NCBI GenBank assembly: GCA_903902915.1
Contig: CAIUWR010000065.1
Coordinates: 1-64,000, forward strand
Length of the DNA stretch: 64,000 nt
Direction of reading: 5' to 3'
Source of the DNA: an uncultured Hyphomicrobiales bacterium
GTDB taxonomy: Bacteria; Pseudomonadota; Alphaproteobacteria; Rhizobiales; Beijerinckiaceae
Shown: one piece after another, positions 60,241 to 61,155 of the stretch
Layout: every line of letters begins with the position of its first letter
How positions within the stretch are numbered: position 1 is the first letter of the stretch
Notes under the pieces: model-generated
Databases searched by the model: none
The model's input: only the letters and a program-made list of their open reading frames with translations
Told to the model about the DNA's origin: nothing
Made by a program: the position numbers and the translations under genes

Positions 60241-60567
60241 TCAAAGATTCGAGCGCCCGTTCACGAGGGAGCCATCCTCAGCCTTGATGAAGACCCGCAG
60301 CACTTTCCCGTCCCGGCGCAACAGCGTTATCTCATAAACATAGTCTTCATTCCAGCGGCAGAGTCGGCTGCGCAGCGGCTCGGCATGAGCGATAGCCGCC
60401 GCAGACCGAAGCGCGCTCGCGGGATCCGTGAACCTGTTATTCGTGACCGCCTCGCGCGCATCGCCGGGATTGAGGCAAGCGCGGTCCAGATGCGGAGCCT
60501 CGGCGCCAAGCGCCGGGCCAACAACAAGCAGGGCGACAAACGCCGGAACAAAAAGTTGAAAGGTCAT
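60241..60567 (-). CDS. small periplasmic PepSY-like protein (FeuN-like candidate)
   Basis: Signal peptide MTFQLFVPAFVALLVVGPALGA; C-terminal DYVYEITLLRRDGKVLRVFIKAEDGSLV; directly upstream of the response regulator. Confidence 0.7.
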   Translation of the reverse strand: MTFQLFVPAFVALLVVGPALGAEAPHLDRACLNPGDAREAVTNNRFTDPASALRSAAAIAHAEPLRSRLCRWNEDYVYEITLLRRDGKVLRVFIKAEDGSLVNGRSNL

Positions 60568-60902
60568 GGGGAAGACTGTCGCTCCCCGAAAATGAATGGC
60601 GCATGAACGCCAGGACCAAAGGCGGCCTCCTGCGCCCGCACATGAGCGGCGAGCGCCCCGTGCCGCCCCTTGCATTGCGCCAGAGCCATCCGGTCCAGCC
60701 CCCACAAACGTGCGACATCCCGGGCGGAAAGACCCGCCTGCGGAAGCTGGCGGACCGAATCACACGGCCGTGTCAGGCTGTCAGGGGCGCGCGCCGGCGG
60801 AGCCGACGTCACGACCAATGGCGTCGAGGGCGCGCACGACGCCAACGCCAAGGCAAAGCCCGCCACTGGCGGAATCGCCAGCCGACTGCGCCAACAATGC
60901 AT
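60564..60902 (-). CDS. Rz1-like outer-membrane spanin lipoprotein, overlapping the i-spanin gene
   Basis: MHCWRSRLAIPPVAGFALALASC lipobox, then SAPPARAPDSLTRPCDSVRQLPQAGLSARDVARLWGLDRMALAQCKGRHGALAAH. Confidence 0.7.
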   Translation of the reverse strand: MHCWRSRLAIPPVAGFALALASCAPSTPLVVTSAPPARAPDSLTRPCDSVRQLPQAGLSARDVARLWGLDRMALAQCKGRHGALAAHVRAQEAAFGPGVHAPFIFGERQSSP

Positions 60903-61155
60903 CATAGCTCTCCTGAAGCTGATCACGCGCGCGCTCCAGATCGGCGACCTGCGCGTTGGTGACGGCGAGCGCGGCTTCCGCAGCCGCACGCTGACGGGCG
61001 GATTCAGCATCCACCGCGCGAAGAACATCCGCCCGCCCGGCGGCGGACCCTTGCGCATAGGCGCGGCTGACCGCGTGGGACAACCACGCAGCGCCGCCCA
61101 TGAAGCTGAGGAGGAGGACGGCCAAAGCCGCCCCCCAGATTTGCAGCCGCCCCAT
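60781..61155 (-). CDS. Rz-like inner-membrane spanin
   Basis: N-terminal TM, Ala/Arg/Glu coiled coil AESARQRAAAEAALAVTNAQVADLERARDQLQESYDALLAQ; out-of-frame overlap with the lipoprotein gene. Confidence 0.65.
   Translation of the reverse strand: MGRLQIWGAALAVLLLSFMGGAAWLSHAVSRAYAQGSAAGRADVLRAVDAESARQRAAAEAALAVTNAQVADLERARDQLQESYDALLAQSAGDSASGGLCLGVGVVRALDAIGRDVGSAGARP

Follow-up and report, generated by a model that had tools for sequence, protein, structure and literature searches.

The closest described relative of the regulatory genes considered here is the FeuN-FeuP-FeuQ system of Sinorhizobium. According to the summary in PMC12486126, FeuN binds and inhibits FeuQ, loss of FeuN hyperactivates FeuPQ, and over-activation is harmful; this paper and PMC3616915 also describe activation of ndvA by FeuP. 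De novo motif discovery in S. meliloti gave TTCA-N7-TTCA ahead of genes that depend on FeuP, feuN among them (PMC3616915).

The window analysed here is a stretch of 64,000 nucleotides from an uncultured Hyphomicrobiales bacterium. A first-pass annotation had proposed that a lysis spanin gene and a feuNPQ-like operon within it are joined by an ATGA overlap into one transcription unit. We compared this locus with its counterparts in related genomes.

Gene content of the locus

The minus strand carries every gene from g15 to glnE, so the earlier statement that they share one direction holds. The genes before feuN belong to an RcGTA-like gene transfer agent (GTA), of which they form the 3' end and the lysis cassette. 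The 3' part of g15, encoding an Rcc01698-like tail/host-specificity protein, occupies 63179..64000 (PF23666, E=1.2e-30). Its ORF runs past the window edge to a full length of about 1293-1300 aa (open frame 1300 aa), and the full ORF matches the phrog_4271 profile with E=0. The tail module before g15 keeps the usual GTA order, with matches to phrog_778, phrog_2913, and phrog_1407. After g15 come a DUF2793 tail-fibre/head-spike-like protein (62014..63156; PF10983, E=1.9e-24), a GH108 endolysin (muramidase; 61371..61955; PF05838, E=3.1e-28; phrog_315 endolysin, E=2.8e-46), and a 70-aa holin-like membrane protein that is strongly conserved among genus relatives (61157..61369). The cassette ends with an i-spanin-like protein (60781..61155) and an o-spanin, an Rz1/LysC-like lipoprotein (60564..60905; PF23793, E=2.9e-6; phrog_456, E=1.9e-4) with a lipobox-like motif, LASC. 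The i-spanin-like protein was assigned from its position, upstream of and overlapping the o-spanin, and from its sequence, with a hydrophobic N-terminal membrane segment and a helical, charged, coiled-coil-like body.

Neither the i-spanin-like nor the 70-aa protein had a match in the profile libraries. An iterative profile of the 70-aa protein also scored on GH108 endolysin ORFs in several families (for example L065, L074, and L091), hinting at endolysin-membrane-domain fusions there, with profile drift as a possible cause; because the profile drifted onto endolysin ORFs, holin counts were set aside.

Searches for portal (PF04860) and capsid (PF05065) gave no match in the whole genome assembly, which is 99.9% complete; a capsid match was found in 45 of the 61 genomes searched. 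Since the portal and major capsid genes are missing, we class the element as a GTA remnant, and an intact GTA in this genome was ruled out. A C-terminal terminase fragment abuts the tail-side genes beyond the window (L032:11187-11735, at about 71187-71735 of contig C65). The earlier suggestion that the lysis genes serve particle release does not fit a GTA without head genes: with the head module missing, such release cannot be their present role in this strain. The reading frames of the lysis cassette are still open in this decayed element.

On the other side of the o-spanin lies the feuN-like gene for a small secreted PepSY-type protein (60241..60567, 108 aa), followed after 24 nt by feuP, an OmpR/PhoP-type response regulator (59539..60216; PF00072, PF00486), and directly by feuQ, a sensor histidine kinase (58148..59539; PF02518). 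This confirms the regulator-kinase order read earlier. The next gene, ccmI/cycH (57011..58081; PF23914), is the first of a conserved ccm block; further ccm genes, degP, a second regulator/kinase pair, and glnE follow, with names downstream of ccmI assigned by reading translations. The second pair, an OmpR-type regulator and a kinase at 50315-52418 between glnE and degP, belongs to the same-direction block.

The feuN product is, as first read, a small secreted PepSY-like protein. An apparent signal peptide is present; the PepSY match is weak for the window protein (E=0.011), and PF03413 (PepSY) matches 21 of 39 family members. Its structural model (pLDDT 83.8) resembles the PDB PepSY proteins YpmB and CD1622, a clostridial lipoprotein, with probabilities of 0.98-1.00 but E values of only 0.26-0.77. 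Against the 82-aa Rhizobium-type FeuN, hhalign gave a probability of 51% over 36 columns. Gene order and promoter support the proposed identity of the three genes as feuN, feuP, and feuQ, and the putative assignment of FeuN itself rests on position and promoter.

Conservation of the neighbourhood across Hyphomicrobiales

The feuP regulator and PF23666 (g15) were searched in the same 150 Hyphomicrobiales genomes. An orthologue of feuP, mostly with 73-86% identity, was present beside the kinase and ccm genes in 142 of them; g15 was present in 104, and 39 had feuP without g15. In 88 of the 104 genomes with g15, representing 31 of 38 families, g15 lies on the same strand directly upstream of feuP, at a distance of 0.6-14 kb (median 3.1 kb). 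In several of the 16 unlinked genomes, the contig ends no more than a few kb away from feuP. The arrangement is seen in Bosea lupini, Nitrobacter vulgaris, Microvirga, Methylobacterium, Phyllobacterium, Devosia, and Aureimonas, and also in several Rhizobium and Neorhizobium; ccmI lies downstream of feuPQ in most of the named relatives. In other orders, genomes with both genes have them either linked (G189, G195, G309, G312) or unlinked (G190, G197, G228, G240, G330).

The genes between the two blocks are variable, with a GH108 endolysin in only 22 of the 88 linked genomes. The expectation that a tail-lysis-feuNPQ order would recur in other Hyphomicrobiales was thus borne out for the adjacency of GTA and feuNPQ and failed for the lysis genes; because these vary, the conserved neighbours are the GTA and feuNPQ rather than the lysis genes as such. 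From these gene-order comparisons, the GTA-feuNPQ neighbourhood is ancient. Neither this linkage nor the order-wide promoter geometry reported below is described in the openly searchable literature, outside which the original FeuN and FeuPQ papers lie.

A conserved FeuP box upstream of feuN

In the window, the motif TTCA-TGCGCCA-TTCA (60593..60607, minus strand) lies inside the o-spanin ORF, 25 nt before the feuN ATG; the extended site, CGTTCATGCGCCATTCAT, spans 60592-60609 on the same strand. We assembled 127 loci comprising GTA-linked, other-order, and GTA-free examples. Within 800 nt upstream of feuP, TTCA-N7-TTCA was found in 117 of these (78 of 88 GTA-linked, 4 of 4 other-order, and 35 of 35 GTA-free loci), and also in all 24 loci from the genus and near relatives. 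The exact box is absent from the remaining 10 GTA-linked loci. Control motifs occurred in 0-15 of the 127 loci: 4 each for the N6 and N8 spacings, 0 for the reversed motif, 3 for the reverse complement, and 15 for the one-base-shifted TCAT-N7-TCAT. In nearly all loci of the relatives the box is single, and other same-strand occurrences numbered 5 in about 396 kb.

OmpR-family regulators bind direct repeats of 11 bp, and the wider consensus around the box, YRTTCAK-N5-RTTCAK, is a direct repeat of that kind. The extended box occurs at 8 sites across the window's genome, and the reversed control at 0. Three of these precede a YbjQ-like gene (G000:C74:36082-36099), glyQ (C95:91929-91946), and a gene for a small secreted protein (C68:1458-1475); no clear ndvA-type target was seen among the genes downstream of extended boxes in this genome. 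In locus L033, two adjacent TTCA-N7-TTCA matches (2632-2670) precede a sensor-kinase gene (607-2496) by about 140-170 nt and do not fit the extended consensus. Bradyrhizobium-type loci (L216-L223, L225, L227, L228, L240) have the box 58-74 nt upstream of feuP and no FeuN profile match.

Promoter geometry and the predicted start of feuN

The distance from the box to the start codon is nearly fixed. Of the 117 box-bearing genomes, 78 have an ATG 23-26 nt downstream of the box, 65 of these at 24 or 25 nt, compared with a background of about 2 per position elsewhere. A TA-rich zone is found order-wide 9-13 nt before the feuN ATG. The corresponding element in the window, GACAGT (60575..60580, minus strand), is a weak match to TAnnnT whose position fits that zone. 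Shine-Dalgarno-like 4-mers precede feuN in 7 of 72 cases, equal to background (10.7%), and feuP in 52 of 72; in the window, feuP starts with TTG and has AGGAG upstream.

Because the box-ATG spacing is fixed, a TA-rich -10 is present, and there is no Shine-Dalgarno excess, a leaderless feuN mRNA is predicted, with transcription starting at or within a few nt of 60567 on the minus strand. The feuN promoter is probably autoregulated by FeuP and would yield a leaderless or near-leaderless mRNA. Both S. meliloti (PMC3616915) and Methylorubrum (PMC9320726) have documented leaderless mRNAs. The layout is not universal, since Rhizobium-type loci have about 55 nt between the box and the feuN start codon.

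A scan of 58-64 kb for sigma-70 consensus promoters found none. Since a FeuP box combined with a degenerate -10 does not belong to the sigma-70-consensus type, the negative scan would mislead toward the operon idea. Terminator-like sites fell mostly within coding regions, and none between the lysis genes and feuN was convincing; a weak one at 60612-60597 overlaps the FeuP box.

Origin of the o-spanin/feuN overlap

The o-spanin stop codon TGA (60566-60564) does overlap the feuN-like start codon as first read, forming ATGA at 60564-60567 on the minus strand. Comparison with relatives shows that the last ~14 o-spanin codons (VHAPFIFGERQSSP) are encoded by feuN promoter DNA. In eight of the genus relatives with a recognisable o-spanin, its stop lies 3-80 nt before the FeuP box. 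Only the window and its four nearest relatives (L003-L006), five genomes in all, have an o-spanin that continues through the box and the -10 to the TGA of ATGA. The feuN start reads ATGA in 41 of 53 GTA-linked genes and in 14 of 19 GTA-free genes. Since feuN starts commonly have an A after the ATG, ATGA would have offered the o-spanin a ready-made stop, and since GTA-free feuN genes also start with it, ATGA is in itself no evidence of coupling. In the window's clade, the o-spanin has thus lost its original stop and reads through the promoter to the ATGA of feuN, and the overlap is a derived overprint and not a conserved coupling device.

The GGGGA...TCCCC palindrome proposed to assist coupling is present in the sequence, but its folding does not exceed that of shuffled sequences (z=-0.19), and the same region in the closest relatives shows no advantage over shuffles either. 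Hairpin-based coupling was ruled out on this comparison. With the overlap limited to five genomes, the same ATGA found where no gene overlaps it, and no significant hairpin, translational coupling through ATGA finds no support.

One transcription unit or two

Taken together, the promoter and overlap comparisons make it very likely that two regulatory units overlap at this locus, one being the GTA lysis cassette and the other a feuNPQ operon of the host with its own promoter. The upstream unit would be the GTA 3' end with its endolysin, holin-like protein, i-spanin, and o-spanin, decayed in this genome; the downstream unit would be the host FeuN-FeuP-FeuQ envelope two-component operon. Phospho-FeuP would bind YRTTCAK-N5-RTTCAK over the -35 region, and RNA polymerase would start at or next to the feuN ATG, giving a (near-)leaderless mRNA that is presumably translated as such. 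Because FeuN negatively modulates FeuQ in Sinorhizobium, its action on FeuQ would by analogy set up negative feedback. Within the small clade of the window, the o-spanin frame runs through the FeuP box and the -10 to the TGA within ATGA. The poor -10 in the window (GACAGT) and the 10 of 88 linked loci without an exact box speak against this arrangement.

The single unit first envisaged, in which feuN is made by termination-reinitiation at ATGA after the o-spanin, draws on the shared strand, the overlap without any non-coding gap, and the order-wide adjacency of GTA and feuNPQ; in six genomes, moreover, no more than 33-95 nt, lacking any evident terminator, lie between the g15 stop and the FeuP box. 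It is nevertheless highly improbable, as the interval 60560-60620, named beforehand as the place where a start site and terminator would count against one unit, holds a predicted promoter, the FeuP box and -10. These elements lie within 40 nt upstream of feuN, between the two gene sets, and they and the ATGA start are found independently of the GTA; the overlap itself is confined to five genomes, its hairpin is not significant, and the lysis genes are as variable as the endolysin count shows. Read-through from the GTA side may possibly add to feuNPQ transcription. A form of mixed control, in which the FeuP promoter serves normally and GTA/lysis induction adds read-through that shifts the FeuN:FeuPQ ratio, gains from the lack of a convincing terminator between the units and from a ribosome-binding site at feuP and none at feuN; because only feuP has such a site, a read-through mRNA would favour FeuP/FeuQ over FeuN. 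The hyperactivation of FeuPQ on FeuN loss in Sinorhizobium (PMC12486126) is also in line with it. Against it, feuNPQ and its promoter are kept in genomes without g15, and factor-dependent termination could separate the units; we regard mixed control as unlikely. Taken further, the adjacency would be a functional switch in which induced read-through makes FeuP/FeuQ with little FeuN, over-activating the envelope response before lysis, and the ATGA overlap in the window's clade would then restore FeuN by reinitiation. Such a switch seems quite improbable.

The two-unit arrangement is compatible with a further reading that bears only on the reason for their adjacency: the GTA may occupy an ancient insertion site, with GTA, feuNPQ, and ccm inherited vertically as a block and no functional link between them. 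We consider this likely. The likewise conserved position of ccmI beside feuPQ, the persistence of feuP where the GTA is absent, and the occurrence of both linked (four) and unlinked (five) gene pairs in other orders agree with it; retention of the linkage in 31 families, longer than might be expected of neutral neighbours, does not.

A single overlap has in this way led to a general, testable picture, in which a GTA has the same chromosomal neighbour across most of Hyphomicrobiales, and this neighbour is an envelope-stress regulator that matters in plant symbiosis. The fixed geometry of FeuP box, -10, and start codon suggests leaderless synthesis of the regulator's own modulator, and in one clade a lysis gene of a domesticated phage-like element overprints this predicted autoregulatory promoter.

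Comparison with known systems

The locus shares with S. meliloti FeuN-FeuP-FeuQ the order of small secreted protein, OmpR-type regulator, and sensor kinase, as well as TTCA-N7-TTCA upstream of feuN (PMC3616915). It differs in that the window FeuN is longer and of PepSY type, with uncertain sequence homology to the Rhizobium-type FeuN (hhalign 51%), and in having a GTA directly upstream; the box-ATG distance is 25 nt, compared with about 55 nt in Rhizobium loci.

With RcGTA-like agents (Rhodogtaviriformidae), the upstream element has in common g15 (Rcc01698) and tail genes in order, a DUF2793 protein, and an endolysin. Unlike in these agents, portal and capsid are missing and the lysis genes follow g15, whereas the lysis genes of the Rhodobacter GTA are at another locus. 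As in Rz/Rz1 spanin pairs, the o-spanin lipoprotein gene is partly embedded in the i-spanin gene, but here its tail also overprints a host promoter. Finally, the two-component pair resembles the PhoP-PhoQ family, PhoQ being the best NCBIfam model for the kinase and PmrA and PhoP among the best for the regulator, all scoring below the family cut-offs; it differs from that family in having feuN as a partner gene and a box built of TTCA direct repeats.
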